A program made the position numbers and the translations under genes. A stretch of DNA of 64,000 bases from Paracyclopina nana. Taxonomy: Eukaryota > Arthropoda > Copepoda > Cyclopoida > Cyclopettidae. The stretch spans positions 13,020,001 to 13,084,000 of the forward strand of contig JAGUCH010000001.1 of assembly GCA_019096065.1 (NCBI GenBank), written 5' to 3'. Positions 8,237 through 36,726 of the stretch are shown piece by piece (positions within the stretch are counted from its first letter, which is position 1; each line of letters starts with the position of its first letter). Below the pieces are notes generated by a model. It worked only from the letters and a program-made list of their open reading frames with translations, made no database searches and was not told the origin of the DNA.

Positions 8237-8744
8237 GATTACGTTCAACTGTCTCTATAATTTCAATATGGCATTTGTTTAATTTACTCGAAATAAATAG
8301 CATATTAGGACGAGATCATAAACTATTAACATTAGTACATAAATCCAATACTATAACACTGTAAGCCATAATTTTACAAAATGCATATTTAACAAAAATA
8401 AAACCTTATGTTGTAATGAAATGATCAAAGTTCTTACTTCTAACTTAAATTTAGCTGTAACAAAATTAAAATGTCTAATAATTAATTGCTCGATTTAAAA
8501 AAAAAATAAATATTTACAGTGTTAGAATTGCAGTAGCGCAAATAAAAAGTCGTGCCGGTACTGCTTCCGTTGAGACCAGCACAGCATCAGGCAGACGCCA
8601 TTTTGTCTTTGGGCAGTCACTCACTGCGCACGTTCAGCCGGTACGGCCAATATAACTAGGCAACGTATGCCGGCCAGAACTAGTTTAGTTGAGACATTTT
8701 GCTGAGCGGGAAAAATTAGCGCAATAACTCATTTCCTGTCAACA
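8237..8744. promoter_or_regulatory. Divergent intergenic region, transposase and gene A
   Basis: This 508-bp spacer separates two start codons pointing away from each other. The half next to gene A is GC-richer (8540-8690) with CACTCACTGCGCACG and GGTACGGCCAATATAACTAG words; no canonical TATA box is seen. The half next to the transposase is AT-rich. It probably drives both genes. Confidence 0.5.
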
Positions 8745-16998: not shown

Positions 16999-17544
16999 AG
17001 AGGCAATGGGCGTTTCCTGGATTAACATGTATTTGTACTATTTTTGATGAAAAATTATTCCAATCTGAAATCATTTGATATGCAATGATAAACTGGAAAT
17101 ATATGCCTCATTTTTGTAAAAAAAACCGACTTATTATTGTATTCTTTATGTAGACGAATTCAATATTTTAGAAACTACGAAGTGTATATTTGAAAATATA
17201 CAGAAATGCATTTAAAATAAAAATTATAATATAATTTAATTCACAATTCAAAAATTAAAAAAAACACGAAAAAAAATGACATTAATGGAATTTAGAAAAT
17301 GCCGAAAAAATGCTTATGAAAATAAGGAATTCAATTAAATATGATATGAGAGAAAAATAAAAATAAAATAGAAATAATTTACATTAACATAGCATATAAA
17401 TGTATTTTTAATTATATTTAACTTGTACATATATAGAAAAAAATGTAAAATAGTTATATTTATAACTATCTTTAGTTACATTTATTGACATAATATACTT
17501 AATAAATAGACATTTGTAGATTCGTAGTTTGAAAAAAAAATTGA
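16999..17544. other. AT-rich spacer between gene C and giant element
   Basis: Long A and T runs with no coding signal. It ends where the terminal inverted repeat starts. Confidence 0.6.
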
Positions 17545-17850
17545 AAAAGGGGCTGGCAAATGAGTCACTATGATTTGACACAAATGAGGCATTGCTTTTT
17601 TTGACTATAGGACTACCCGATTTTTTTTGCCCAGCTCTTCAGGGGCCCCATGGGAACGCCAAAATACCAACGATTTTTTCTCTACGTGCCCGGGAAGTGC
17701 CTCAAATTGAGGATTTTTATCCGCCTTGCCATCCGCCATTTCGCGAATTTTTTTTTATCCCGGAGTTTTAATTTTTCCGTCAAATTGCCGCGCGTTAATT
17801 GCTTACTGTGACGTCACGTAAGCTGAAAAAAACAAACAGCAACAGCTGCA
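17545..17850 (+). repeat. Left terminal inverted repeat
   Basis: About 300 bp matching the reverse complement of 35,815-36,117 with scattered mismatches. Landmarks: GGGGCTGGCAAATGAGTCAC, CTCTTCAGGGGCCCCATGGG, CTCTACGTGCCCGGGAAGT, GGAGTTTTAATTTTTCCGTC, TGACGTCA. Confidence 0.92.
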
Positions 17851-18179
17851 ATGTGCGCACTGCGCAGAATTTGAGAATGTCTGAGACTTTTTGGTGATAA
17901 TTACTGTAAAAAAAGAGCTAAGACAAAACCGGGCCGAATTTCCCGAGATTTTCAGGCCGGGAAAAGGAGCCAAGCATTGCCGAGGAAACGCGCAGAATTC
18001 CCGTGAAAAAGAGGCCACGATTTCTGTGAACAAAGTGCCTAATTGTCAGAATAACAAGCCCAAATGCTAAATGCCATGACCAAAGGTAAAGTTACTCTTA
18101 ATTCTTTGTTTGAAATATTCAAAAAAGGATATTTTCAGAGCTCGCTCAGTGAAGCTAAGCAAAAAAGCCAGAGCTTCCA

Positions 18180-18500
18180 TTAAAATGAGAATCGGCCGTC
18201 AAAGCAGCCTTACATTCATAGACAAGAAGCCTCGGATTCGGCCGTCAAAGCAGCCTCATATTCCTAGACAAGAAGCCTCAGATTCGGCCGTCAATGCAGC
18301 CTCAACATTCATAGTGAAAAAGCCTCGGATTCGGCCGTCAAAAAGCCTCGAATTCGGCCGTCAAAACAGCCTCGGATTCGGCTGTCAAAAAGCCTCGGAT
18401 TCGGCCGTCAAAAAGCCTCGAATTCGGCCGTCAAAGCAGCCTCAACATTCATAGTGAAAAAGCCTCGGATTCGGCCGTCAATGCAGCCTCAACATTCAGT
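18180..18500 (+). repeat. Subterminal array, GCCTCGGATTCGGCCGTCAA
   Basis: About ten imperfect copies of a roughly 20-30 bp unit built on GCCTCGGATTCGGCCGTCAA, interspersed with GCAGCCTCAACATTCA. The same motif recurs at 27,120-27,700 in this orientation and inverted at 29,613-29,810 and 32,940-35,720, as expected of subterminal transposase-binding repeats. Apparent open frames here arise from the repeat. Confidence 0.88.
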
Positions 18501-18719
18501 CAAAAAAAAGCCTTGGAAGATTGCCATGGAAACAATCCATGAGAAATTGGCTAAATTCTGGAGGAAAACGGGCCGTAATTCACAAAAAAAGGCGCCGGAA
18601 CTAAAAGGAGCCCAGATGCCAAATTCAGAGAAAAAAAAGGTAAAATTACCCTTATTTCTTTGTTTGAGATATCAAAAAAAGATATTTTCAGCGCCAGTTC
18701 TGTGTTAAAATGAAGGCGT

Positions 18720-19880
18720 GGCCAGGTATGGCTGCAAACCCTTCGACATGATACCCAGTCATCAGCCAACATTGTGGAGGCCAAGGATATTTGATGGGCC
18801 ACGCCTACGGCCTCACAAGCACCCCTCACCTCGGCTGCCTGTACTATGGAGTACAGTGGAAACGCAAGACCTTCAATATGACACGAGGGAGGGGCTGAGG
18901 CGTGGCTGCTAACCCATGAACTAGTTCACCAGACCTCAGCCAAAATTCTGATGGCCAAGGATTTTTGATGGGCCACGCCTACGGCCCCACAAGCACCCCT
19001 CACCTCGGCTGCCTGTACTATGGAGTACAGTGGAAACGCAAGACCTTCAATATGACACGAGGGAGGGGCCGAGGCGTGGCTGCTAACCCATGGACTAGTT
19101 CACCAGACCTCAGCCAAAATTCTGATGGCCAAGGATTTTTGATGGGCCACGCCTACGGCCCCACAAGCACCCCTCACCTCGGCTGCCTGTACTATGGAGT
19201 ACAGTGGAAACGCAAGACCTTCAATATGACACGAGGGAGGGGCTGAGGCGTGGCTGCTAATCCATGGACTAGTTCACCAGACCTCAGCCAAAATTCTGAT
19301 GGCCAAGGATTTTTGATGGGCCACGCCTACGGCCCCACAAGCACCCCTCACCTCGGCTGCCTGTACTATGGAGTACAGTGGAAACGCAAGACCTTCAATA
19401 TGACACGAGGGAGGGGCCGAGGCGTGGCTGCTAACCCATGGACTAGTTCACCAGACCTCAGCCAAAATTCTGATGGCCAAGGATTTTTGATGGGCCACGC
19501 CTACGGCCCCACAAGCACCCCTCACCTCGGCTGCCTGTACTATGGAGTACAGTGGAAACGCAAGACCTTCAATATGACACGAGGGAGGGGCCGAGGCGTG
19601 GCTGCTAACCCATGGACTAGTTCACCAGACCTCAGCCAAAATTCTGATGGCCAAGGATTTTTGATGGGCCACGCCTACGGCCCCACAAGCACCCCTCACC
19701 TCGGCTGCCTGTACTATGGAGTACAGTGGAAACGAAAGACCCTCAAAAGAAAAGAGGGTGTGTTGGGGGAGTGACTGCAAACCCATGGACTAGTTCACCA
19801 GACCTCAGCTAAAATTCTGATGGCCAAGGATTTTTGATGAGCCACGCCTACGGCCTCACAAGCACCCCTCACCTCAGCTG
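18720..19880 (+). repeat. 174-bp satellite, about 6.5 copies
   Basis: Units anchored on ATGGGCCACGCCTACGG start at 18,794, 18,968, 19,142, 19,316, 19,490 and 19,664, exactly 174 bp apart, with a diverged last copy (19,837). Within each unit GCCACGCCTACGGCCCC pairs with GGGGCCGAGGCGTGGC about 75 bp downstream, and CTGTACT/AGTACAG flank a 4-nt centre, giving a hairpin of about 109 bp. Because 174 is divisible by three, long repeat-derived frames stay open; I do not regard them as genes. Confidence 0.93.
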
Positions 19881-19994
19881 GCTGCTCTGTGATACCTTGG
19901 TCCTCTATTAAACTGAATTTTAAAAAAGCTGCTTTACTAGAATCTTAAAACTTTTAAGAAATCTTAAATGATGCTAATAAATATATTATGTTTA

Positions 19995-22900
19995 TCACTG
20001 TTTTTTATACAAAAACACTTGGCATTTTGAAACTCCAGCAGACATCTTTATGGGATGGCCTCCATCCACCTCAAAAAATGAGCTGTCATCAAGAACATGA
20101 GCAGTGTAGTGCCCTGAATCCAGAGAGCCTTTGTGCTCAATAGCTGACACCAGCTGGTAGCTAGCAGACTCCCCCATTGTTGGTATGGCTAGAATTCCTC
20201 CAATGTCAACAGGGGCCTCCACTTTTTGACTTTGGCCATTACTCCACAAGATCCTATTGATGGAAACTACAAGGATTGGTGTGGGATTGTTGAAGACCTT
20301 CTTCAGCTTCTCAGTGTAGGCTTGACCACAACTGCTGCATTTTCCCTGTCTTTGGTGGGAGAATGAGTCTTGTATTGCCTCCTGTAGAGTACTCATTGGG
20401 AATTCCATTGAGTAAACACCAACCACAGTAGGTTGAGAACACTGTGTGAATGATTTGCATCCACAACCTGACTTTGTGGTGACCTCTACAATTTCAGGCT
20501 GAGCAACTTCAGCCAAAAGACATCCTGGGCTTACATCATCTGGCAGCAAGGCAAAGAAGAAGTCCTCAGCTGCTTTGTACTCAGCCAAGTAGGAGTGGTC
20601 TCTTTTGAGCTCTTCAACAAAGAGTTTCAAAAGAGGCTTGTCTTCAACTGTCACACTAGTGGCAACTTGTATCCATTTTGTCATGGCAGCATTAAAGCCA
20701 TCTCTTGGCTGAGGCAGATCACTCCACCTAGTTGTCTCTGCTGCCAAGCCTGACTGTCTAATTGCCCAGAGCAAACTAACCACACCAGAGGCCAGCCAAC
20801 AAGAGGTGCTGGAGCTGTTCTTGATCTGCACAAGCCTCAAGTTGCCAACAGCATGAACTGTAATATAAATATACTGTCAAAATCAATCCTTAGAGTGACA
20901 CTTGTAAAAGGCTACTCACTTTGAGCCTGATAATTGAAGCTGTCCAGGGGCTCCTCATCAACCTCCATAGCTTCATCTGGTTGCTCTTCTTCAGATATAT
21001 CTGCTATGGATGGCTCATCATCTAGGACCAAGTGAGATGACTCTGGAGGGTCATTGACAAGGTCAAGATCATCTAGTTGAGTAGTGTCAAGGCCTTCAAT
21101 AACAGATTCTTGATCATCATAATCATCGAACCCTCCAACCATTGGATCATCATCCTCATCTGAGTCTTCTGCATCTCCTTGGCCATCAGGGAAAACCTTT
21201 ATTCAAAGAGCAGGTTTAGGCATTTGCATAACATATAAACAGTTATTTGCACCTTATTGAAAGGATGCCTTGGCTGCAGGTGGTCTGGCTTCCTAGTGTC
21301 AGTCAAGGGCATTGGGCACACAATTGGACTCTCCCACCAAGGACACAAAAGCAGTAACAGAAATGCCAAAGGATGAGCTCCTAGGCCCATCATTCTGCTG
21401 CATACATCAGGGACTCTTGCCTGGAAAGCAATGAAGTGAGATTCAAATAAACAATAAGTGCAATCAAGTACCTTGTTGGAGCATCTCCAGCCAAAGAGGG
21501 ACTGTAGCCCAGACTTGAGGTCCAGTTTTGTGTTGGGCTGGTTGGCAAAGGCAATCATGACCTCTTTTCTGTACTGCTTTGCCTTGGAACTCCTATTGGC
21601 AGATGGAAACCTTGTGTACAATATCAACAGTCCATCTTTTGGAAACTCTCCAAACTCCTCTATGTCCCAATCATCTGGGCATTCCTCCAAGAGCCTGGCC
21701 TTGATCTCTAATTTTGAGGTCTCTTCCTACAAGCTGCAATAAATTCTTCATGGCTTTTAAAGTCACCAAGGCAGTCCTCCAGCTCAGCCCTTCTTGCCAA
21801 AGTAGTATAAAAGCCAGCTCTTTTCCAGCGATAATTGCCCATGGCTTAAGAAAAAATATTATTTTTTTCAAAAGACAATTTGTAGCACATTTGATCCTAC
21901 CTAAGTCCATTATTGCAGACTTATCTTTCTCTTCTAGCACTGGAATTTTGATAGGAAAGTGATCTCTCATGGCATCAAGGTCACTCAATGGAAAAGTGGT
22001 CCAGTTCTTGTCATTTTTCCTTGGGAAGCCATCTAAAACAAGCATTGTATGTGTGATCAGTACATGTATTGTTTAACTCACCAATCTTAAATGGAAACTT
22101 CACTTTGGACTCAAAAGGATTGATGAGATTGAGCCTCTTGTCAATCAAATTAGCCAACTCTTCTTGCTCCTCCTCATTGGCAAATTTCACATGAAACTTG
22201 GCATGGCTCTGGTTGTATGCTCCAATGCTGCACCCATATAGGATCTGGAGCTTAGATATAGCAGCATACTCCTGGTTCAGCCTAGGCAAAAATGGTTTAT
22301 GTCTCACAGTTTCTAATGGAGCTTATGTTCTTACCCAAGCTTTTTGGCCATTGGAGAACCAATTGGTTCAAGAAAGTGGTATTGAAGAGGAGTTGTCCAT
22401 ATTTTGTCCTGTTTTATGGCAGCATGAGCCATTTCAACACCTTACAAAGAAAGAAAAGAAACATTAGGTTACAGAAGTTGAAAATCTAGTTGATTCACCT
22501 TTTCTCAAAGTGCCAACCAAACACTTGTGGTTTAAGATCTTGTCTCAAGGCCATCCAGCCCTTTCGTGCTGACTGGTTCAATCTTTTTGGTTGCACCTGA
22601 GAAAATAAAAAAAATGACATACATGCCATAAGAAGGTGCTAAAAGTAACTCACTGTTAAACTGCATTATTTCTTCAGGGTCAGGGCCAAGAGGAGCAATG
22701 AAGACAGCACCAGACTTGAGGCAGTAATCCTTCAGAGTTACTAGATTGCTCATATCAAGGTTGTGGGGCACAAAATCATAGCCCTTGTCCACAATGACAA
22801 GTGCAAAATGCTTTTCAGTACCCTTGAGGATGTTGATCATGCCCAAGTCCAATTTGCAGCCAGCCTGTTGAGCCTTGATCTCATCACTGATTATTTTGCC

Positions 22901-24330
22901 CATTATAACAGTGTCACCATGTGCAGGTGAGATGCTAGCACTGGTCATACTGAAAGCAACTACATGACCTTCAGCTGTTGTGACATTGGTGATAGTTCCA
23001 CAGTGGCCTGAAATAAAAGCATCAATGTACTTCTTAAATCACATTTAAGCAAAAGATCATCTTACATGCATTTTTGGCACTGTAGGTACTCTTCTGAAAC
23101 TCCATATCAGAACTCTTTGAAAAGGTATCTTGGTGGAGTCAATGATGACCAGGTAAGGAGTCCTGTCTTTGCCAAGAGGATCAGCAAACTTAGAGGTAAT
23201 GGACTTCATCTGAACACTCTGCCGTTTGATCATCTGCTCAAAGGCAATGTCTTTTTCTGAGTCTGTCAAGTCAAGCCTTGACCAGAATCCAAACTCATCA
23301 ACAAGGGTGGAATAGTGCACCAAAGCACAGTTCCAAAATGTGTTAGAGACACCTTGCTTGGTCAGTTGGAAGAGGATTGACAACAGATCATTGGAAAGGT
23401 TGTGTCGTAGCTTGAGCCTGAACAGAACCACTGTAGCAGGGATTGACAGAGAGGTGTGCTTTTTGGAAAGCCCATTTGAAGCCAAGGTCTCAACCAGAGT
23501 CCAAAACTCCTTGGCATTCATGCCAACACATTTTTGGAGTTCCATCTCAGTCAGATATGAAGGATTCATAAACTTGTTCCTCCAAGCTGTCTCAGCATTG
23601 GGATAAGCATGTGGTTTATGCCTCCCATCCTGGAGATGCTTCTTGTATTCAGAAAGCCCAAGCTCATGAACAAGGCTATCAAGCTCACTTCTTCCCTTCA
23701 GATGGCTATCAATTTGAGGAGGATTCAGCAAAGATACCTTCCAAAAGTTGTCATCAATGTCAATGATTTTGAAGCACTTGCTGCGTGGACTCAGCACTTC
23801 TTCAGAAAGCCTAAAAACCTCCTTTCTACCGTCATCAACAACTTTGATGTTTTTGGGCACCTTGATAGCATTTTCTCTGCCTGACTTGCACTTTTCAGCC
23901 AGCACTTTCTTGTAGAAGCTCCTAGACTTTGTGGTACCATATGCCTCAAAGTTAAGTGCTCTATCCTGGAGGGAGGGACTGATGGCAGGAAAATGCCTGG
24001 GATTGACACTTTCTCCTCTGATAGGAGCTCAAACAGTTGCAATGGAGTGAACTGATGCAACAATTCCACAAGCTTTGAATTTGGACTTTTCTGACTGTAG
24101 GTTTGGAACTCTGCTGAGGACTTGGAAGCTCTGAAGCAGTAGTGGCTGTCCAAATTGTAGCTTCGAGAGAAAGTTTTTCCACAGGTCTGACATTGGACAC
24201 TCTTTTTGGGCTCATGGATTCCACGTGTGTGTCGGAAAAAGTTCTTCCTTGAACAGTCTGTCTCAAGCAGATGAAATGACCTATCATCATTGCACTTATG
24301 GCAAAAGCCATAGTGAATTGGAGCAGGCAG
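19995..24330 (-). CDS. Transposase (DDE_Tnp_4-like) fused to USP-like protease
   Basis: Ten exons: 24330-23066, 23007-22654, 22596-22499, 22440-22335, 22281-22082, 22032-21901, 21844-21472, 21420-21253, 21196-20920, 20857-19995. The first acceptor-bounded exon encodes two zinc-finger-like units (FCHKCNDD and VQCQTCGKTFSRSYNLDSHYC-type, about 24,150-24,310), then a helical region with RLKLRHNLSNDLLSILFQL resembling the HTH of DDE_Tnp_4 proteins, the first catalytic-type Asp in IDSTKIPF and a second in VIVDKGYDF. The third acid is not assigned. A middle region and an acidic linker follow, then a 290-aa domain with a Cys box (STSCWLASGVVSLL), CxxC pairs and a His box (HKGSLDSGHYTAHVL, then FFEVDGG) of ubiquitin-specific proteases (C19, or C98/USPL1-like). 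Single-base losses near 24,011, 23,117 and 21,725 break the frame. Any exon upstream of 24,330 was not found. Confidence 0.68.
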
Positions 24331-24741
24331 CTGAAATTGAAAAATTGCATCAATTAAGTAAGCTCAAATGGGGATGAAACATAAAAAATCATGACAATTA
24401 TTGTAGTATACTTTGATGCGCAATATCTCGGCAACGGAGCGTCAGAGCTGACTCCTTTTGCACCCATGAATTCACGTTGAGCACCTCTACAACTTTTATT
24501 ACTAGTGCAAACCTCTAAGATCACTTTCATTTCGAAGTTTGTCTCTGCTCAGTGCAAACGGAGCAATTTACTGTTAAAGAAATTCTAGAAAGCAAATCAC
24601 TTCAAGTCCAAGAGCCAACGTATCAATAGAATGACCACAATAGCACAGCCTTCCTTGTGCTATGTAGAATGCAGCATTTCCATGATATAAGCTTTTAATA
24701 GCTGTGAACTTATTTTTCATAAGTCCACCAGTATTTTTGCC

Positions 24742-24951
24742 ATGGATGAAAGCTTGAAACTCAATGAAAAAGTGCCACTTGACAAGGTTGCGCACATTGG
24801 GCCGAAACCGCGCCAAAATGCCAAAAGTGCTGCTCGCCAGAACGTTACTTATCTCGTAACATTAAAAAAGCAACACGACTATAGGGTTCTTGATATTCCT
24901 CCGGGACTGGTGGTTTCAAAATGGTTTAAAAAAAAGTCAAAGACAAGATGA
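24742..24951 (+). CDS. Possible 69-aa basic ORF
   Basis: ATG-initiated frame of 69 residues, Lys-rich and ending WFKKKSKTR. It overlaps an 80-codon minus-strand frame (24,574-24,816), and neither has a recognised domain or splice partner. One may be an exon of a neighbouring element gene. Weak call. Confidence 0.2.
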   Translation: MDESLKLNEKVPLDKVAHIGPKPRQNAKSAARQNVTYLVTLKKQHDYRVLDIPPGLVVSKWFKKKSKTR

Positions 24952-25044
24952 ACAATATTTTTCTATCAGGTAGCTCAGCTTAAGTGCGGCAAGTGGCTCA
25001 GCAATCCAAAAGCGCAGTATTAGCAGGTTGCACAGGAAGTGTAT

Positions 25045-25730
25045 TGCAACGGCGGCCTCTACCGCAACGGCGGCCTCTACCGCAACGGCGGCCTCTACCG
25101 CAACGGCGGCCTCTACCGCAACGGCGGCCTCTACCGCAACGGCGGCCTCTACCGCAACGGCGGCCTCTACCGCAACGGCGGCCTCTACCGCAACGGCGGC
25201 CTCTACCGCAACGGCGGCCTCTACCGCAACGGCGGCCTCTACCGCAACGGCGGCCTCTACCGCAACGGCGGCCTCTACCGCAACGGCGGCCTCTACCGCA
25301 ACGGCGGCCTCTACCGCAACGGCGGCCTCTACCGCAACGGCGGCCTCTACCGCAACGGCGGCCTCTACCGCAACGGCGGCCTCTACCGCAACGGCGGCCT
25401 CTACCGCAACGGCGGCCTCTACCGCAACGGCGGCCTCTACCGCAACGGCGGCCTCTACCGCAACGGCGGCCTCTACCGCAACGGCGGCCTCTACCGCAAC
25501 GGCGGCCTCTACCGCAACGGCGGCCTCTACCACAATGGCGGCCTCTACCACAAAGGTGGCCTCTAACGCAACGGCGGCCTCTACCGCAACGGCGGCCTCT
25601 ACCACAATGGTGGCCTCTACCACAATGGTGGCCTCTACCACAATGGTGGCCTCTACCACAATGGTGGCCTCTACCACTACGAGGGCCTCTACCACTACGA
25701 GGGCCTCTACTGCAATGGCTGCCTCCACTC
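25045..25730 (+). repeat. 18-bp minisatellite, about 38 units
   Basis: Unit CGCAACGGCGGCCTCTAC, with 27 essentially perfect copies from 25,045 to 25,530, then about 11 increasingly diverged copies (CACAATGGTGGCCTCTAC, CACTACGAGGGCCTCTAC). The divisible-by-three unit keeps several frames on both strands open; these are repeat artefacts unless transcription is shown. Confidence 0.95.
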
Positions 25731-25859
25731 CACAGCCTCTATTGCACCTTGGGCACTTCAAGACCAGAAAAGGAGCTGAACAGAGTAGTCCTAACAACTA
25801 GCCATTTTTTCTTACCTTGGATGGAATGTCCCTATCAGGTCCTGAGCAGCGGAAAAATG

Positions 25860-26309
25860 TTATTGATGTGTCACACTTGACCAACTTTTGGAGCAACTTT
25901 TGGACATCAATAGAGCTAAGGTTTTCAGCACTTTTTTCCCAACGGTCAAAAGTTTATCACCAGCCAATATTGTCAACTCAAAGATATCACTTAAGAAATG
26001 CTGATTATCATCTGTTCTGAGTCTGTCTAGCAAATCTTCTTGCAAATTGAAGAAAACCTTAACATGAAGATTTGACTTCATTGTTGTGCAGTTGTATCCA
26101 GACTGAATTAGATTGCATTTATTCGTCAGTGAAAGGAGTATGCATTCAAAAGCCTCAAATATCAACATGCTCAACAGGGTGCAAATAATGAACTCTTCAC
26201 TCATGCACTGGAAGATATCAAGTCTCAGGAAACAATGCAAGAGTATTAAAAGGGTTTCAAGTGTGTGATTGCCCTTAATTAATGAATTAATGGAGCTATT
26301 TTGAGACAT
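25860..26309 (-). CDS. Unrecognised 149-aa protein in giant element
   Basis: A single frame with a real ATG encodes 149 residues. Residues 18-75 are hydrophobic (LETLLILLHCFLRL, FIICTLLSMLIFEAFECILL), followed by a polar helical half (LQEDLLDRLRTDDNQHFL, LTVGKKVLKTLALL). It lies between the minisatellite and the inverted membrane-gene fragment, on the same strand as the latter. No signal peptide of classic form and no known family. Could be a membrane-associated accessory protein or an exon of a larger gene. Confidence 0.4.
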   Translation of the reverse strand: MSQNSSINSLIKGNHTLETLLILLHCFLRLDIFQCMSEEFIICTLLSMLIFEAFECILLSLTNKCNLIQSGYNCTTMKSNLHVKVFFNLQEDLLDRLRTDDNQHFLSDIFELTILAGDKLLTVGKKVLKTLALLMSKSCSKSWSSVTHQ

Positions 26310-26352
26310 TTCAGCTCAAAATCTCAATAAATCTGGGATTCAATTCAATTGA

Positions 26353-26839
26353 CTAATTGTTCAATACTGCTAGCTCTTGAATGATTTCCTCTCTATTGAT
26401 GACATTAGGCAAGTCATGATTCTTGAGATCAATTTGGCCAGATCTCCTGGCTAGAAACCAAGCAACCAATCCAGACACAATTGGGAGGATCAGTTCCAGG
26501 ATCTCCACTGGCACTGAATTGAGGACATCATTAATCCAAGGAATATTAGGTACAGTCTTTCTGGCATTTCCCCACTTGAACTCCAGTCTTTCCTCATCTG
26601 TGTGGGCACTTTTTGGCAACAGGACATGAATATTAAGCAGGTTTTTCTTCCTGGAGTAGGACCTTATTACAGGAATGACTCTGAAAGAATATCCAATTAA
26701 TAAATGCAAATCAATATTATCATAACTGTTGTTACCCTGGCTTAAAGGCATCTGCAGCTTTGAGATCAATGTATTCCTTTCTTGGGTAGAGCTCTTGATT
26801 TTTTTGACCCACAATTCTCTCTAATTCATCAAGTCTTAT
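26353..26839 (-). pseudogene. Inverted 5'-truncated copy of membrane-protein gene
   Basis: Exons 26839-26736 and 26690-26353 encode the C-terminal part of a paralogue of the gene at 28,190-29,483. Matching blocks include QELYPRKEYIDL against EDLYPKRLFVDV, FKPG followed by VIPVIRSYS, and the C-terminal membrane segment SVPVEILELILPIVSGLVAW then FLARRSG. A 45-nt intron (26,735-26,691) interrupts it where the other copy is continuous. Upstream the homology stops at about 26,839, where a truncated TIR begins, so the 5' two-thirds are lost. Confidence 0.72.
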
Positions 26840-26960
26840 ATCACGGAGTTTTAATTTTTCCGTCAAATTGCCGTGCGTTAATTGCGTATCGCTCCCACTG
26901 TAGTGTGTGACGTCACTCAGCACTTAGCCGAAAAAACAAAAGCAGCTGCAATGTGCGCTG
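26840..26960 (+). repeat. Internal truncated TIR copy
   Basis: Begins TCACGGAGTTTTAATTTTTC and continues CCGTCAAATTGCCGTGCGTT, TGACGTCA and GCAGCTGCAATGTGCGC, matching the inner part of the left TIR; the outer 220 bp are missing. Details (TCACGG, GCCGTGCG) match the right TIR better than the left. Confidence 0.85.
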
Positions 26961-27119
26961 CGCGAAACAGAATTCGAGCTCTGTGGTTTTCAGCTCAAAT
27001 TCAAAGAGAGAAAAAAGAGCCTAGAATTCCCGTGAAAAACAACCCGAATTAAAGGAAGAAAAAGCATAGAGTTAACGAACTTCCATTACGGAATTTGGCC
27101 TCAAAAGCCCAAACATTCA

Positions 27120-27700
27120 AAAATGGATTTGGCCTTCGAAGCAGCCTCAATACTCATCGTCAAAATGCCTTGGATTCGGCCGTCAATTAAAGCAGCCTCA
27201 ATATTCATTGCCAAAAAGCCTTGGATTCGGCCGTCGAAGCAGCCTCAATATTCATTGCCAAAAAGTCTCGGATTCGGCCGTTGAAGCAGCCTCAATATTC
27301 ATTGCCAAAAAGCCTTAGATTCGGCCGTCAAAGCAGCCTCAACATTCACAGTCAAAAGGCCTCGGATTCGGCTGTCAAGCAGCCTCAACATAAACAGCCA
27401 AAAAGCCTCTGATTTGGCCGTCATTCGGCCGTCAAAAAGCCTCGGATTCGGCCGTCAAAGTAGCCTCAACATTCACAGTCAAAAAGCCTCGGATTCGGCC
27501 GTCAAAGCAGCCTCAACACTCACAGTCAAAAAGCCTCGGATTTGGCCGTCAAAGCAGCCTCAACATTCACTGTCAAAAAGCCTCGGATTCGGCCGTCAAA
27601 GCAGCCTCAACATTCACTGTCAAAAAGCCTAGGATTCGCCGTCAAAGTAGCAGCCTCAACATTCATAGTCAAAAAGCCTCGGCCGTCAAGAAGGAACCCA
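27120..27700 (+). repeat. Subterminal motif array behind internal TIR
   Basis: About fifteen copies of GATTCGGCCGTCAAAGCAGC alternating with CTCAACATTCA, same orientation as 18,180-18,500. The TIR plus array layout repeats that of the left end, marking the start of a second element copy. Confidence 0.88.
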
Positions 27701-28189
27701 GATACGGATCACAAGTACTTTGCCAAGACTTGGCGAGATTAATTGGAGACTTGAGACTCTCTCGAATGGGTCTTCTCGTGAAGAACAGGCCTTATTGCTG
27801 GAATAAGCAACACAGAAAAAGAAGCTGAAATGGCAGTGAAAACAATCATATGCCTTGAAAATCCTAGGCCTTGAAAATCCTACGCCTTGAAAAACCTTTC
27901 AGCCTTGAAAAACCTTTCAGCCTTGAAGAACCGGGAGCTGAGGATACACGCCAAATTCCAGTGAAAAAGAGTCCCCTTTGTCAGACCTCACATTGGGCAG
28001 CAAATTGTGCATTAAGATCTTGTTGCTGCTGACAGCTTCAGGAGTCAAGGTGATTAATACAATTTTCCTTCATCATTGAATGAATGAAAAAGCCATTGTG
28101 ATACCTGATGAGCCTGTGATCGAAATCAAGGGATCTTCTCCAGTTTGATGAATACCTTGTCACATTCCACAGGTGACTTCTATTTCATC

Positions 28190-29483
28190 ATGTTTCATTT
28201 GCTTTTAATGGCATCATTCTTGGCCAATGTGCATTGCGCTAATGAGGTAAACTGCATTCATGGAAGTTTTTAGTGTCACAATTTCAATAGTCTTCTCTTC
28301 TTTCTCCAGGATAACTTTATGCCCATAAATGTGAGCTTAAACTTGACAGAGGTTGAAGCTCAGTTTGGACAACTTTTGGAAGGCATCCACTTTCGATTGG
28401 ACACCCTCAACAATGGATCATATTATATCCCAGCTAGCCCAAAACTTGAGAATGTAGATCCAAGGAGTGAATGGCGAGCTGCAATTTTTGCAGCTGATGC
28501 TCTTATCCAAAGAAAGGCAATTGTGAGATTGACATCTTTGAGTACTCGTCTTGAACGATGCATCTACAAATACAAGTCAGTCAAGCAGACCACAATATTG
28601 GTTAAGGCCAAAGAGGAGGAAGGAGACCTAATCCAAATAAACGATTCCTGGAGGGTGGACCCAACCGATGACCAGAAGCTTGGCACTTTTGTATCCTCAT
28701 TTTTCAAAGGTGTGGCAAAATACGGACAGTTCGTCTTAGATGGTGAACCTCTGGAACTAACCAAGACAATTTTCCAAGACATTGTTGCTGGCTATGAATT
28801 CGATGAAGGAGATTTTAGAAAGGTTGATGACGAGGACAGAACCTTGCTTTTGACATCATTCAATTTTATCCAAGAACAAATCAACCATCTGAGTGACAAT
28901 GTTGCACTTATTTGCGACATTTCTCATGATCTTAATGAAGGTATTTTTTGCTCTAGCTCTTGCTTGTATGGAATTGTAGGTAGGTGCTTTTTTTCTTTGC
29001 AGAAATAATCAACCCAAATGTTCAGCACCTTACTAACAGCATCATTGGCTATGAGGAAATGGCAAACATAATAAGCCAGAAAATGAGGATTTGTATCCAA
29101 AAAGGCTGTTTGTTGATGTTGAGCTTGATGACTTGTACAAGCCAGGAGTAGTCCCAATTGTGAGAACTTACAGCAAGCAAATGAATGTTGTGACCATTCA
29201 TTGCCTAATGCCAACATCCCATATTGAAGAGGACAATGAGGAAGACAAGGTCTACCACTGGGGAGCATCAAGGCAGCAATATCAATTCACAAGCTGGCTT
29301 CATAGCATGTTGAATTCAATACCAGTGGAGATTATGGAGCTTTGTAGTCCCATCATCACTGCAATTATTGCTTGGATCCTGGCTAAAAGATCAGAGAAGA
29401 AAAATCAACTTGAAGTAGAACAAGTCATTGCTGATAGAGGCCTTTTGCTTGAAGAACTCAGAGCCAAAGCCCCCACTTTATGA
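28190..29483 (+). CDS. Signal-peptide, single-pass membrane protein (frame broken once)
   Basis: Exons 28190-28246, 28310-28940 and 29003-29483 are joined by GT-AG introns. The first exon is a signal peptide (MFHLLLMASFLANVHCA). The second encodes about 210 residues of ectodomain with N-glycosylation motifs (NVSLNLT) and predicted helices. The third carries a conserved juxtamembrane block and a C-terminal membrane anchor (SIPVEIMELCSPIITAIIAW) with a basic tail. Exon lengths total one base short of a whole frame: an A run at 29,080-29,083 appears one base short relative to the inverted paralogue at 26.4-26.8 kb. The layout (signal peptide, helical ectodomain, C-terminal anchor) suits a cell-surface or envelope-like glycoprotein; no family recognised. 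Confidence 0.66.
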
Positions 29484-29612
29484 TGCATTTTTATCATTTG
29501 ACCCACAGTGAAGTAAAATTAGGAGTGACATAAAAGAAAGCTAAATGGTTGCAATAAAAACAATCAGTTTTGATTCCTCAGGTGTCAGTTTGCTCCTAGG
29601 GCAGCCAATTCC

Positions 29613-29810
29613 AAGGCTGTTTTGTTGTCCAAATATGAGGCTTCATAGAAATCCACAATGCATTTGAGGCTGCATTGAGGGCCAAATCTGAGGCTGCTTT
29701 GAAGGCTGAATCCGAGGCTGTTTTGATAGCCAAAACCAAGGTTTTTTAAAAATCCTGTATCTGAGGCTGCCTGCTATGATGGCCAATATGAGCCTGTTTA
29801 GAAATCCACA
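29613..29810 (-). repeat. Degenerate inverted subterminal motifs
   Basis: Five or six diverged copies of GAGGCTGCTTTGA-GGC-GAATC, i.e. the subterminal motif in the opposite orientation, 130 bp after the membrane-protein gene. This suggests the former right edge of a short element copy. Confidence 0.65.
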
Positions 29811-30612
29811 TTGATTGTGTCATCTTGTTAAGTTTGTTTTGGCTGCTAGTTACATGGTCATCCGCTTGTCACACCCAAGGCCTAGTATTTTTAATTAGCA
29901 ACACTTTGCATCAGCTGATGTTTGCTTGTCATGGGCCCATATCTTCACTCAAAGACTGGCAAAACCCTCTTGTTCCAATTATTTCCCCTTTCGGGTCCTA
30001 ACGTAGGCGAAAATTGAATAAAGTGATGTACTTTTTTTAAGGCAAAATTAAAAAGTAGTAGTATCTGGATCCCTCAATGACAAGATTTTCACCTACTATT
30101 TTGATGACTAACGTCCGATAGCTGCCTCGCTAGTTGATTGTTATTGTTATGAGTGAGGAGTCTATTGCATTTTTAACTTTTAACAAATTAACAAGGCAAT
30201 ACATCATAGTAAATCAATATCAAATTAGTGACTTAAATCTTAAATAGCTTTTTCTGTGAAAACTGTAGTGAGCATCTCAAATAATATTGGGATTGGGGTA
30301 AAAGCTGAACCATTGGAAGTCAAGTTTTGACTGTTTTGTTTTGCTCTATAAAAACATACTCGGATTTTGCAGCCTCAGCCTCCGGGCACTTTTCAAAATG
30401 GACAGCATTATCAACCTTGATGGCGATAATGTCCAACTGGCAGTTGGTCCTCATCAAAATGATAACATTGTCCACATTGACGTTGAGCTTTGATTCAGTT
30501 TTTGAAGTGAGTGCTTTTATTTTGTTATTGATGCAAATAAAAAATATCGTCAAAGCAAAGCTAGTTAACTCGCTAACAGTCAAGAGAAGTTATAACAAAA
30601 GAAAAGGGAAAA

Positions 30613-31812
30613 ATGGCTGCATCTCAAGTTTTATTATTGGTTTTTCTAGTCCTTGGAATCACTGAGGCCTTGATTTGCATCCAGAAGAAGGGAAATCTGA
30701 CTTTTGAGATATCTACCAAAGGCAGTTGCTACTACAAGGTAAATAGAGTGATTGATGCCTTTCTTTTTATTACATTGTAATTATTTATATTTCAGTGCAA
30801 TAAGGGGGAAATGGTTGAAGCTGGAGCTACTGAAAGCAGCCTTATTGGAGATTTGTTCAATTACCGGACTTGTAAAAGCGACAAGTAAGTGGAATCAATG
30901 TTATCAACAGTGGTCAGAAACGACCAAAGTGGTCATTTTTGACTTGATTTGGTCAAAAAAAAAAATGGTGATCGGAAAAGTGCTTGCAAGAAAATGACCA
31001 AAACTATCTAAAAATAGGTACTTCTAGCCAAAATAGCAAGCAAGACAAATGAGTTTTATCAGGGACTCAAAATTCCGCTAGGTGGCGACACGGTATTTTA
31101 GGGGGGCAGATTACTCGCTGAGGTGTATGCAAACTTTTGTTCAGGGTGGTATTCGGTAAATATTGAAGAAAAAACTTCATTTTTCGCCTTCAAAATCAGT
31201 GTATGGATAAGAATATCTGAACTAGGCCATGAAAATAAATTACTTTTAAAGAGCATATTTTTTAATCTTGAGCCAAATAAGCCCCCTTGACCACTAGCGA
31301 CGCCAAAAAGCTCTCGTGTCATTTTACCGAACTACATTTGTCTTGCTTGCTATAGGGCACAATTCCAATTTTCACATGCATATTTTTCCTTATAGAAAGG
31401 ATCTGAGATAGATAAAGCTTGCAAAAAGCTTGATCTCAAAAGAAATATATAGCCAAAACCTCACTTTGATGTACAACAGCTTCTGAAGAATCAGGCTACT
31501 TTTTGCTCAGTGCTTGGACACCAAAATAACAATTCCAATCGAATATGTCTTATCGTTGCAGGTGTAACTATGATCCCTGTTCTTTAGAAGAAACTGAAGT
31601 CAACTTTGTAGCCATTTTTGGTAGCCTGGCAGCTGTTCTAGTTTGCCTCATCTTTGCTGCATGTGGAGCTTTGTACTACAAGAGGAAGTGGGTATTTATC
31701 ATTACTTTCTAATTTAATGCACTGCATATCTTTTATCTCGAATAGGCTTTGCTTTGGCAGCCCTGGAGGAGCCCATTATGCTCTTGATATTGCCCAAACC
31801 AGCAAATGCTGA
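30613..31812 (+). CDS. Type I membrane protein, 135 aa, four exons
   Basis: Exons 30613-30738, 30796-30884, 31562-31687 and 31746-31812 join with phases 0,2,2 to 135 residues. Residues 1-19 are a signal peptide (MAASQVLLLVFLVLGITEA). The ectodomain (20-80) has six cysteines (CIQ, CYYK, CNKG, TCKS, CNYDPC), suggesting a small disulfide-bonded module. A strong transmembrane helix (FVAIFGSLAAVLVCLIFAA) is followed by YYKRK and a 20-residue cytoplasmic tail with HYAL and a terminal SKC. AATAAA overlaps the stop region (31,813). The 677-nt second intron hosts a complete MITE. No family recognised; frame and splice sites are intact, unlike its neighbours. Confidence 0.72.
31033..31353. mobile_element. 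Complete 321-bp MITE in an intron
   Basis: ATAGCAAGCAAGACAAATG at 31,033-31,051 has its perfect reverse complement at 31,335-31,353. If the outer TA is the target duplication, the TIR starts GCAAGCAAG, as in Tc1/mariner-derived MITEs. A truncated relative lies at 3026-3135. It sits wholly within the second intron of the 135-aa membrane-protein gene. Confidence 0.9.
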
Positions 31813-31818
31813 AATAAA
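31813..31818 (+). terminator. Poly(A) signal of the 135-aa gene
   Basis: AATAAA starting one base after the TGA stop codon. Confidence 0.6.
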
Positions 31819-32233
31819 AGATTTTGCATCACTTGAAGAGCAGACGTTCAATTTTGTGGGTCGAAAAAGGCAGCCCGTGCTCAGCGATTTTCTGCGCTAA
31901 TAGCTGTTACAGTGTAGTTGAGTGATAATAAACTTATTTATTCTGACGAGATGATGCTGCTCCAGGAAAGGTTTGACCAACTGAGCCAAGCAATTTTTTT
32001 GCAGAACTTTAAACAAAATGCGACTGAAATGGTGAAAATGAAAGCTTTTCCTTGGTTTTCCTTGGATTTGGGTTTTGACCTTGCATCAGCTTGTGGTTGA
32101 GCTCGGGAAGCTATCCTGGAAGAAGATTCTTCTTCAGTGGAGGCCTCGGTGTCAATCTCAGTATCTTCGTCTCCATGGCTTGTCGTTTTTTTGCCATCCT
32201 AGGCCAAGTTTTCATGCCCCAAAAATAAGTAAA

Positions 32234-32583
32234 ATGTATGAACTTGATACATATTTTAGTTCTACATGGTGTAAGGAAGGTGTAGAACCCAAATAATCCT
32301 CTGTCCTACAACTTAACCAATTAAAAATAGAAACATTTCAGTTTTTGCTCCTGCTATACTGAACGAAGGCTAGTTTCATTTCATCAATTAAATATGCTTT
32401 GCATGTGGTGTAGATGTATGAACTTGATACATATTTTAGTTCTACATGGTGTAAGGAAGGTGTAGAACCCAAATAATCCTCTGTCCTACAACTTAACCAA
32501 TTAAAAATAGAAACATTTCAGTTTTTGCTCCTGCTATACTGAACGAAGGCTAGTTTCATTTCATCAATTAAATATGCTTTGCA
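32234..32583 (+). repeat. 180-bp tandem duplication
   Basis: The segment starting ATGTATGAACTTGATACATA at 32,234 is repeated at 32,414, almost identical over about 170 bp. No coding frame. Confidence 0.95.
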
Positions 32584-32584
32584 G

Positions 32585-32805
32585 GTTGTTCAGGATGTTC
32601 AGGATGTTCAGGTTGCTCAGATTGCTCAGCTTGTTCAGCTTGTTCAGGTTGTTCAGGTTGTTCAGCTTGTTCAGGATGTTCAGCTTGTTCAGGATGTTCA
32701 GCTTGTTCAGGTTGTTCAGCTTGTTCAGGATGTTCAGGTTGTTCAGGTTGTTCAGGTTGCTCAGATTGCTCAGCATGTTCAAATTGTTCAGCTTGTTCTA
32801 GCTAT
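32585..32805 (+). repeat. 9-bp minisatellite, TTGTTCAGG/C
   Basis: About 24 copies of a 9-bp unit (TTGTTCAGG, TTGTTCAGC, ATGTTCAGG, TTGCTCAGA). It keeps frames open on both strands, giving Leu/Asn- or Val/Gln-repeat artefacts. Confidence 0.93.
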
Positions 32806-32899
32806 TGTATTGGATGGTTTTGGGAGCATTTGTAGGCTGGGAATGCAGTCCTCGCCCAGCTTTGAGATCGGAGGCTATTTGACTGTGAATGTTGAGGCT

Positions 32900-35720
32900 G
32901 CTTTGACAGTTGAATAGGTTAGGTTAGGTTAGGTTAGGTTTTTGACGGCTGAATCCGAGGCTTTTTGACTGTGAATGTTGAGGCTTCTTTGATGGCCGAA
33001 TCCGAGGCTTTATGGCGGCCGAATCCGAGGCTTTTTGACGGCTGAATCCGAGGCTTTTTGACTGTGAATGTTGAGGCTTCTTTGATGGCCGAATCCGAGG
33101 CTTTATGGCGGCCGAATCCGAGGCTTTTTGACGGCTGAATCCGAGGCTTTTTGATGGCCAAATCCGAGGCTGCTTTGATGGCCAAATCCGAGGCTGCTTT
33201 GATGGCCGAATCCGAGGCTGCTTTGATGGCCGAATTCGAGGCTTTTTGACGGCCGAATCCGAGGCTTTTTGACGGCCGAATCCGAGGCTTTTTGACGGCT
33301 GAATCCGAGGCTTTTCGACTGTGAATGTTGAGGCAGCTTGATGACCGAATCCCGAGGCTTTATGGCGGCCGAATCCGAGGCTTTATGGCGGCCGAATCCG
33401 AGGCTTTATGGCGGCCGAATCCGAGGCTTTTTGACTATGAATGTTGAGGCTGCTTGATGACCGAATCCGAGGCTGCTTTGATGGCCGAATCCGAGGCTGC
33501 TTTGATGGCCGAATCCGAGGCTGCTCAACTGTCATTACCCTGGCTTAAAGGCATCTGCAGCTTTGAGATCGGAGGCTATTTGACTGTGAATGTTGAGGCT
33601 GCTTTGACAGTTGAATAGGTTAGGTTAGGTTAGGTTAGGTTTTTGACGGCTGAATCCGAGGCTTTTTGACTGTGAATGTTGAGGCTTCTTTGATGGCCGA
33701 ATTCGAGGCTTTTTGACGGCCGAATCCGAGGCTTTTTGACGGCTGAATCCGAGGCTTTTTGACGGCTGAATCCGAGGCTTTTTGATGGCCGAATCTGAGG
33801 CTTTTTGACGGCTGAATCCGAGGCTTTTGATGGCCGAATCCGAGGCTTTGTGACGGCCGAATCCGAGGCTTTATGGCGGCCGAATCCGAGGCTTTTTGAC
33901 GGCTGAATCCGAGGCTTTTTGACTGTGAATGTTGAGGCTTCTTTGATGGCCGAATCCGAGGCTTTATGGCGGCCGAATCCGAGGCTTTTTGACGGCTGAA
34001 TCCGAGGCTTTTTGATGGCCAAATCCGAGGCTGCTTTGATGGCCAAATCCGAGGCTGCTTTGATGGCCGAATCCGAGGCTGCTTTGATGGCCGAATCCGA
34101 GGCTGCTTTGATGGCCGAATTCGAGGCTTTTTGACGGCCGAATCCGAGGCTTTTTGACGGCCGAATCCGAGGCTTTTTGACGGCTGAATCCGAGGCTTTT
34201 CGACTGTGAATGTTGAGGCAGCTTGATGACCGAATCCCGAGGCTTTATGGCGGCCGAATCCGAGGCTTTATGGCGGCCGAATCCGAGGCTTTTTGACTAT
34301 GAATGTTGAGGCTGCTTGATGACCGAATCCGAGGCTGCTTTGATGGCCGAATCCGAGGCTGCTTTGATGGCCGAATCCGAGGCTGCTCAACTGTCATTAC
34401 CCTGGCTTAAAGGCATCTGCAGCTTTGAGATCGGAGGCTATTTGACTGTGAATGTTGAGGCTGCTTTGACAGTTGAATAGGTTAGGTTAGGTTAGGTTAG
34501 GTTTTTGACGGCTGAATCCGAGGCTTTTTGACTGTGAATGTTGAGGCTTCTTTGATGGCCGAATTCGAGGCTTTTTGACGGCCGAATCCGAGGCTTTTTG
34601 ACGGCTGAATCCGAGGCTGTTTGACGGCTGAATCCGAGGCTTTTTGATGGCCGAATCTGAGGCTTTTTGACGGCTGAATCCGAGGCTTTTTGATGGCCGA
34701 ATCCGAGGCTTTTTGACGGCCGAATCCGAGGCTTTATGGCGGCCGAATCCGAGGCTTTTTGACGGCTGAATCCGAGGCTTTTTGACTGTGAATGTTGAGG
34801 CTTCTTTGATGGCCGAATCCGAGGCTTTATGGCGGCCGAATCCGAGGCTTTTTGACGGCTGAATCCGAGGCTTTTTGATGGCCAAATCCGAGGCTGCTTT
34901 GATGGCCAAATCCGAGGCTGCTTTGATGGCCGAATCCGAGGCTGCTTTGATGGCCGAATCCGAGGCTGCTTTGATGGCCGAATTCGAGGCTTTTTGACGG
35001 CCGAATCCGAGGCTTTTTGACGGCCGAATCCGAGGCTTTTTGACGGCTGAATCCGAGGCTTTTCGACTGTGAATGTTGAGGCAGCTTGATGACCGAATCC
35101 CGAGGCTTTATGGCGGCCGAATCCGAGGCTTTATGGCGGCCGAATCCGAGGCTTTTTGACTATGAATGTTGAGGCTGCTTGATGACCGAATCCGAGGCTG
35201 CTTTGATGGCCGAATCCGAGGCTGCTTTGATGGCCGAATCCGAGGCTGCTCAACTGTCATTACCCTGGCTTAAAGGCATCTGCAGCTTTGAGATCGGAGG
35301 CTATTTGACTGTGAATGTTGAGGCTGCTTTGACAGTTGAATAGGTTAGGTTAGGTTAGGTTAGGTTTTTGACGGCTGAATCCGAGGCTTTTTGACTGTGA
35401 ATGTTGAGGCTTCTTTGATGGCCGAATTCGAGGCTTTTTGACGGCCGAATCCGAGGCTTTTTGACGGCTGAATCCGAGGCTTTTTGACGGCTGAATCCGA
35501 GGCTTTTTGATGGCCGAATCTGAGGCTTTTTGACGGCTGAATCCGAGGCTTTTTGATGGCCGAATCCGAGGCTTTTTGACGGCCGAATCCGAGGCTTTTT
35601 GACGGCTGAATCCGAGGCTTTTTGATGGCCGAATCCGAGGCTTTTTGACGGCCGAATCCGAGGCTGCTTTGATGGCCGAATTTGAGGCTTTTTGACGGCC
35701 GAATCCGAGGCTTTTTGGCT
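32900..35720 (-). repeat. Higher-order repeat with TTAGG blocks
   Basis: Dense inverted copies of the subterminal motif (GAATCCGAGGCTTTTTGACG and variants) are organised in units of about 701, 862 and 863 bp, judged from (AGGTT)5 blocks at 32,916, 33,617, 34,479 and 35,342. Three units also hold a 36-bp piece of the membrane-protein gene (33,535, 34,397 and 35,260). The near identity of the 862-bp units indicates recent amplification. Apparent reading frames are repeat-derived. Confidence 0.92.
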
Positions 35721-35814
35721 GTGAATGCCTTATTTCATCTTCCTTTTTTGCTTCCTCTTTTTTCTGTTGGGCAGAAAATCAGCTGTTGGCCTGTTGCTGT
35801 TTTTGTTTTTCACG

Positions 35815-36117
35815 AATTACGAGCTGTGAATTATGATGACGTCACTACGGGGAGCGCTAAGTAAATAACGCACGGCAATTTGACGGAAAAATTAAAACTC
35901 CGTGATTAAAAAAATTCGCGTAATGGCGGATGGCTAGGCGGATAAAAATCGTCGATTTGAGGGACTTCCCGGGCACGTAGAGAAAAAATCTTTTGAGTTT
36001 TGGCGATCCCATGGGGCCCCTGAAGAGCTGAGCAAAAAAAATCGGGTAGGCCTATAGTCAAAAAAAGCAATGCCTCATTTGTGTCAAATCATAGTGACTC
36101 ATTTGCCAGCCCCTTTT
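35815..36117 (-). repeat. Right terminal inverted repeat
   Basis: Reverse complement of 17,545-17,850, ending CTCATTTGCCAGCCCCTTTT. It contains TGACGTCA, GACGGAAAAATTAAAACTCC and CCCATGGGGCCCCTGAAGAG. Confidence 0.92.
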
Positions 36118-36726
36118 ATTCCGGACTTTAAGTGAGTAATACATATAAAGGCTAATTATAGAACCGATTATGGTTTCAATTATAATTGCATAAGTTTTTA
36201 ATATGTTAATATTTTTTAATTATTTCAATCATGCGTTCTCAATAGAAGGTACGGGTGATAATGAAAACAAAAAATCAATCCTAGCCTTGATTCTTAGTCG
36301 TCACTATTTCCGAATTCATATGTTTAGCGATATCGTTACGCTTTTCTCTGTAGTAATAGACATTACTAGGAAATAAAATGCCCAACGAAATCAATGTTTT
36401 TGTACAACTATTTTTTGTTTTGTTTTGTGGGGTATAATAGTTTCATTTGGCAAAATATGTTAACATTGTTAAACATTGTTCCATAGTTTATCCAGATAAA
36501 GTTTAAAAGAGCAATTGTCGTAAGAGGTCACTTTACATTACAGATCATCTTGGTAAGGGCTAGGGGTAAAAAGGTGTTTCACTAGTAGGAGCTGCAGAGA
36601 GGTTTGAAGCCGGCATCTATGCGTCAGTTTGTCTTCCTCATAGCCTATGTTACTAACTTTATATTTCATATTATCTGCTAGCATACACATGCAAGTTTGT
36701 TACTTAATTTTTTTACATATTAGTAT
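36118..36726. other. Intergenic, nothing recognised
   Basis: AT-rich with no coding frame of note; flanks the giant element on the right. Confidence 0.5.

Follow-up and report, generated by a model that had tools for sequence, protein, structure and literature searches.

What kind of genetic unit is delimited by two facing, nearly complementary sequences that lie 18.6 kb apart in the copepod Paracyclopina nana, and does it move? The stretch in question comprises 64,000 nucleotides (contig JAGUCH010000001.1, positions 13,020,001 to 13,084,000; here the window) and harbors animal genes encoding nuclear-receptor and ionotropic-glutamate-receptor domains. An earlier note, made from the letters of the window alone, had proposed a giant DNA transposon with terminal inverted repeats (TIRs), and this proposal is strengthened here by a nearly identical sister copy and by six related copies with empty sites. 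We conclude that the unit, termed element A, is very probably a PHIS-type cut-and-paste DNA transposon that works like Spy.

Terminal repeats, related copies and empty sites

Aligned without gaps, window positions 17545-17754 and 35908-36117 are 94% complementary, which upholds the inverted recurrence on which the earlier note was built; the inverted ends, given there as 300 bp, are real but nearer 260 bp in length, since a gapped alignment yields a TIR of 257 bp (93% identity) running inward from G17549. The outer AAAA and TTTT represent target sequence, and the element proper is therefore bounded by positions 17549 and 36113. The subterminal arrays of element A lie in mirror orientation, as that note had also held: the core GATTCrGCCrTC occurs five times on the plus strand of 17545-19000 and 59 times on the minus strand of 32900-36117, with six further plus-strand occurrences in 27000-27900, and is found neither on the opposite strand of these three stretches nor in the window outside 17000-36200.

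We searched the genome (92 Mb in 10 contigs, designated C1 and so forth) using the first 92 bp of element A as query, and scored all 35 candidate places. The facing copies that the earlier note had suggested looking for are common, with 26 of the 35 places falling into 13 facing pairs that span ≈1.7 to 18.7 kb (one end being shortened in two of these pairs) and nine standing as single ends; the family thus does not consist of unlinked solo repeats, and recurrence of the same end at 35 places and in 13 facing pairs excludes a chance meeting of the ends. We refer to element A and these relatives as family I; A and four of its large relatives, elements B to E, are listed in Table 1. Elements A and B are collinear from end to end and are embedded in unrelated 500-bp flanks. 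From 19,000 to 36,117 (≈17.1 kb), the two differ by 12 substitutions, whereas the first 1.5 kb (17549-18999) contains 48 (≈3-4% divergence), and this divergence of the left end in otherwise almost identical elements suggests that the left end of A or B was exchanged between copies.

To locate empty sites, the joined flanks of 11 elements were compared with the genome; in the comparison that yielded the sites of E and L018, outcomes are those among the matches listed of 307, and L019, L020, L022 and L023 are not counted either way. Empty sites were recovered for six family I relatives (L021, B, C, D, E and L018), and in each case the flanks meet at AAA/TTT with no base duplicated. The junction of L021 (2.7 kb) is spanned by 10 of 13 matches, seven over all 200 bp and three over 198, and two of these sites aligned base by base are ungapped at the junction. 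Over 400 aligned bp, the empty sites of B and C are likewise ungapped there; that of D is identical in 367 of 400 columns, and its 4-base gap lies 15 bases to the left, the junction itself being ungapped. Two sites for E are identical at 120 of 120 positions, and one for L018 (2.5 kb), situated within a satellite, at 119 of 120. Among the elements with both ends recognized, AAA is present on the left in 11 of 11 and TTT on the right in 10 of 11, and in 10 of the 11 no base is shared across the element that could represent a duplication, L019 being the exception in both respects (F, L017 and L024 were excluded from this count, the pattern having missed one or both ends). As read from the assembled genome, these comparisons establish the mobility of members of 12.9 to 18.7 kb, their exact insertion points without duplication and the recent copying of the 18.6-kb unit.

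A transposase gene with a predicted C-terminal ubiquitin-specific protease domain

The earlier note had reported several genes between the ends; genes are indeed present, and the one overlooked is a multi-exon transposase gene that is predicted to end in a ubiquitin-specific protease (USP) domain. In element A, the minus-strand exons from 24363 to 19995 contain the first catalytic Asp (VIIDSTKIP), the second (IVDKGYD) and a GVE motif, an arrangement that, judged by eye, is common to the transposases of family I and of a second family described below. GLESK was considered as the source of the catalytic Glu but set aside in favor of the GVE motif, which is also present in family II. Those DDE residues that lie beyond the Pfam match are putative. 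A spliced model built on copy B comprises 1,280 codons with the first exon excluded, and its UCH match (E=1.5e-8) exceeds the Pfam cut-off.

The USP domain follows the transposase on the same strand at all nine transposase loci (A to D and five diverged loci). Family I and family II USP sequences share 36% identity over 285 aa and both keep the Cys box (..CW..S) and the His box (SGHY). The ratio of nonsynonymous to synonymous substitution rates (dN/dS) is 0.18-0.22 in four calculable USP comparisons; three others were unusable, two for near-identity and one for saturation. A side observation concerns A and D, which are 95% identical at the USP end of the gene and only 66% in the finger/HTH exon, so that these two parts would differ in history through recombination.

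Database searches returned little for these sequences. Protein database searches with the exon encoding the finger, HTH and DDE segments, the membrane protein described below and the USP open reading frame (ORF) gave 0 matches among 2387, 3058 and 939 candidates, and a Protein Data Bank (PDB) sequence search with USP ORFs gave weak USP matches only. Neither an NCBIfam search with two of the proteins nor an Rfam scan of the whole window at the gathering threshold produced a match, and an AlphaFold model of the USP ORF alone was discarded (mean per-residue confidence, pLDDT, of 32).

Composite structure and membrane-protein cargo

The earlier note had left open a composite of two elements, and the sequence bears this out. 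At the junction within element A, C-type sequence (99% identical to element C 8202-8341) meets an inward-reading element end that corresponds to the right end of C from 12727 inward and begins at TIR position ≈210. This arrangement establishes, at the level of sequence, that element A is a composite of two elements. The accessory membrane-protein genes noticed earlier likewise hold up, as two diverged copies (I and II) whose aligned proteins share 38% identity; the single hydrophobic segment near the C terminus was computed on the E copy. Copies were detected in elements A to E and in a relic at C1:15.507 Mb and nowhere else, with none in family II at the search sensitivity used. The relic (C1:15507159-15509154) is decayed and retains fragments of the middle domain, USP and membrane gene of the same element type.

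Between B and E, gene II has a dN/dS of 0.19 over 244 codons, and the membrane proteins may be cargo that serves the element. No believable match to the membrane protein was obtained in a PDB sequence search, and no relative in the viral contigs searched. SLATT_1 (E=0.11) and MCU (E=0.14) were judged chance matches, the latter in an ORF that is probably non-coding.

Table 1. Features of element A and location of large family I elements (window positions unless a contig is named)
Feature	Position	Strand	Remarks
Element A (window copy), complete, GGGGCTGGC...GCCAGCCCC	17549..36113	.	18,565 bp (18.6 kb); sister copy B collinear throughout
Left target half, AAAAA (Spy-type AAA side)	17544..17548	+	right flank shares no duplication with it
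Left TIR	17549..17805	+	257 bp
Left subterminal 23/47-bp motif array	18192..18506	+	
174-bp tandem repeat, 6.5 copies	18755..19884	.	also in elements C and D
Transposase gene, multi-exon (predicted): C2H2 finger, HTH_Tnp_4, DDE, middle domain, acidic stretch, C-terminal USP	19995..24363	-	
USP/UCH (peptidase C19) domain ORF	19995..20876	-	293 aa; Cys box and His box; Pfam UCH E=1.4e-9, above cut-off
18-bp minisatellite, 38 copies	25046..25725	.	shorter in element C
Membrane-protein gene I, 3' part only	26356..26838	-	5' exons (present in element C) lost at junction
Composite junction	26839..26840	.	common to A and B (B collinear across junction)
Truncated internal element end and subterminal array	26840..27682	+	outer 208-211 bp of TIR missing
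Membrane-protein gene II	28274..29483	+	one hydrophobic segment near C terminus
Right subterminal 23-bp motif array	32939..35717	-	
Right TIR	35858..36113	-	256 bp, 93% to left TIR
Right target half, TTTT	36114..36117	+	
Element B, sister copy	C8:5785513-5804254		18.7 kb
Element C	C1:9902730-9915666		12.9 kb
Element D, decayed	C9:835557-851710		16.1 kb
Element E	C5:105728-113434		7.7 kb

A second family of related elements

Transposase and USP sequences recur at five further loci, where the matched pieces are 27-39% identical, with the USP ≈4 kb downstream on the same strand, and one additional locus combines the middle domain and USP with no transposase match. The element end at one of these loci (L048) recurs in five large facing pairs of ≈14.5 kb (contig C6), 16.0 kb (C2), 10 kb (C6), 13.2 kb (C3) and 6.6 kb (C1), as well as in smaller ones, and all 10 ends of the large pairs read AAA/G. 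Four of the five further transposase-USP loci lie inside such family II pairs of 10-16 kb with ends of the same kind; for the fifth (C2:10.62 Mb), one end is among the matches listed.

In an empty copy (L052) of the host repeat entered by the 14.5-kb element II-a, the two flanks adjoin with no gap (194 of 197). Element II-e (6.6 kb, C1:10484223-10490802) occupies the same AAA/TTT position as B in another copy of a host repeat, and the empty site of B serves as that of II-e too (196 of 200). The repeat entered by both B and II-e (L058, L059, L009, L010, L041) is, by this comparison, a natural insertion hot spot. As a separate observation, ORFs just beyond element II-b (L049 7164-9306) carry a GDTDS motif, which we take to be that of DNA polymerase B, and gave 0 Pfam matches; they perhaps belong to another large element.

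Comparison with known transposons

The lack of target duplications links these elements to Spy, a group reportedly first described in 2014. The earlier note had recognized neither the transposase nor the deubiquitinase domain, and had likewise missed that duplications are lacking and that this points to Spy. In the passages of the published descriptions considered here and below, what distinguishes Spy from every other group of DNA transposons is that it targets AAATTT and leaves no duplication (PMC4482050); its elements measure 1,165-5,910 bp and carry one ORF (one or two according to the discussion) and TIRs of 5-691 bp (PMC4482050, PMC11304231), and active cgSpy loses ≈12% of its activity per kb of cargo (PMC11304231). 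Element A resembles Spy, so described, in lacking a target-site duplication, in inserting between AAA and TTT, in its animal host, in a putative transposase with predicted DNA-binding and DDE domains and in a TIR (257 bp) within the Spy range. In contrast to Spy, with its protein of ≈700 aa, element A has a gene that is rich in introns, runs to at least 1,280 codons and includes a USP domain, along with extra cargo genes and a composite make-up.

ISL2EU and PIF/Harbinger share with element A a transposase of the DDE_Tnp_4/HTH_Tnp_4 type, putative in element A, and an A+T-rich target, but are described as duplicating AT or TWA and as mostly carrying THAP and YqaJ, or a Myb/SANT protein (PMC4482050). 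None of THAP, YqaJ or Myb/SANT was detected among the element ORFs scanned, and neither an ISL2EU-type AT duplication (A/AT/T) nor a PIF/Harbinger-type TWA duplication was found at the empty sites; membership of both groups is ruled out by the missing duplication. Ginger1 also has TIRs and a transposase with a C-terminal ubiquitin/SUMO protease (OTU or Ulp1), but its catalytic domain is Gypsy-integrase-like, its protease belongs to another family and its elements measure 2.6-7.1 kb (PMC2836005). Also comparable in domain make-up is a Trichomonas protein in which an IS5-type Transposase_11 is joined to Peptidase C19, although this is a protist protein, likened here by description, and the passage reports no element of such size (PMC2836005). 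Teratorn is likewise a composite giant cut-and-paste element, but is described as a 180-kb fusion of piggyBac and a herpesvirus (PMC10175614, PMC5601938), whereas element A unites two members of one transposon family. Among the papers listed in searches on Spy, giant transposons and deubiquitinases or USPs in connection with transposons, we found none that describes such an element, subscription papers being largely uncovered. Because target and lack of duplication are as in Spy, and because protease-transposase combinations have precedents, we place the element A family as Spy-like in mechanism; that it belongs to Spy itself is probable but unproven.

Evidence against this placement and alternative explanations

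Several observations weigh against this assignment. Empty sites, which the earlier note had proposed to look for together with target duplications, exist for six relatives and show no duplication, but the joined-flank search of the genome found none for the window copy itself. The right end of L019 reads AAATTTT, which leaves AAA on both sides and can be read as a 3-bp duplication, and another empty copy of the host repeat of II-a (L053) has two extra T at the junction. In the copy B model, DDE_Tnp_4 (E=4.5e-4) reaches 20.3 bits versus a Pfam cut-off of 24.8 and HTH_Tnp_4 (E=0.013) 15.5 bits versus 27, and a single polypeptide that unites transposase and USP is a prediction made at the DNA level, based on ORFs and splice signals. 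Relative to B, single-base gaps interrupt the frames of window copy A. Finally, family elements with a full-length transposase and/or USP measure 6.6-18.7 kb versus 1,165-5,910 bp in the Spy passages, and the family has been compared with Spy by published description.

These points leave room for a group other than Spy, in which the AAA/TTT preference and the lack of duplication would have evolved independently in a PHIS or IS5-like lineage that already possessed a USP domain. The divergence of the transposase below curated cut-offs, its 0 relatives in the protein database and the Trichomonas protein that unites a C19 peptidase with an IS5-like Transposase_11 (PMC2836005) are in keeping with such an origin, which we nonetheless consider rather unlikely, as these elements agree with the Spy descriptions in target, in TIR length and in the absence of a duplication (PMC4482050, PMC11304231, as above). 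Comparably doubtful is a scenario in which the 18.6-kb unit depends on help in trans for its movement, its transposase gene being dead, and in which A and B were spread by an intact relative. The genome does harbor several 2-4-kb derivatives that lack the transposase part, and the broken frames of A would fit; however, A and B show almost no substitutions in this region, and 16 of their 18 one- or two-base length differences from 19,000 on are bases missing in A, which makes assembly error likelier than decay. The broken frames are thus probably assembly errors, and the corresponding exons are open in B and C.

Apart from the missing empty site of A, nothing favors the chance rearrangement that the earlier note had weighed or a segmental duplication of A and B, and both are highly improbable given that the flanks of A and B are unrelated and cut exactly at the TIR and given the empty sites and 13 facing pairs. 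A self-synthesizing element of the Polinton/Maverick or adintovirus-like kind, to which a size of 15-20 kb, long TIRs and several genes would be suited, deserves almost no credence, as the 18 element ORFs scanned with Pfam (not all ORFs) contain no polymerase B, integrase, ATPase or capsid family, the target is not duplicated and the putative DDE enzyme is PHIS-like. The earlier note had also seen neither polymerase B nor an integrase, and the spliced model adds no polymerase B or retroviral-type integrase by Pfam, from which short exons could escape.

Proposed mechanism and implications

In the Spy-like mechanism that we favor, the PHIS-like protein encoded by the element would be the enzyme that makes its cuts precisely at the outermost G/C of the inverted ends and places the element at the AAA/TTT boundary of a target resembling AAATTT; the lack of duplication is as expected if the target were cut flush, and we infer such a flush cut. 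The subterminal arrays may be transposase-binding sites, and the USP domain, as part of the transposase polypeptide, could remove ubiquitin from the transposase or from repair or chromatin proteins during transposition. The window copy originated when an element with transposase and gene I was fused to the end of a gene II element; the fused unit, retaining two matching outer ends, then moved in one piece.

More tentatively, and with doubt outweighing confidence, families I and II and their kin might form a lineage of their own among giant DNA transposons of animals, in which a PHIS transposase acting without target-site duplication and a deubiquitinase are one protein and the cargo is under selection. 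The protease would then permit, via ubiquitin-dependent repair, the transposition of elements several-fold larger than their relatives, and such large units would be able to fuse and to move as composites. Element A is about three times longer than the reported Spy relatives. The existence in nature of Spy-like elements of 13-19 kb, two of which are nearly identical, would mean that a cargo limit of the cgSpy type has been overcome there, with the USP domain and the subterminal arrays as candidate causes of large-cargo tolerance, and would document selfish elements with membrane-protein cargo in animals.

Additional observations

Outside element A, window positions 39074-43495 contain an open frame of 1,473 codons that is partly strongly purine-skewed and matches no Pfam family. 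Elsewhere in the genome, the 4.0-kb derivative L022 (C1:1303330-1307369) has kept the 3' part of the gene alone, its USP frame being open over 306 codons, and appears by eye to split an ORF that runs across its joined flanks, presumably a TVP23-like host gene. Four (TAGGT)5 blocks (at 32915, 33616, 34478 and 35341) lie within or near the right subterminal array of element A; the last three mark a higher-order period of ≈862 bp in that array, and we take these blocks to resemble arthropod telomere repeats.

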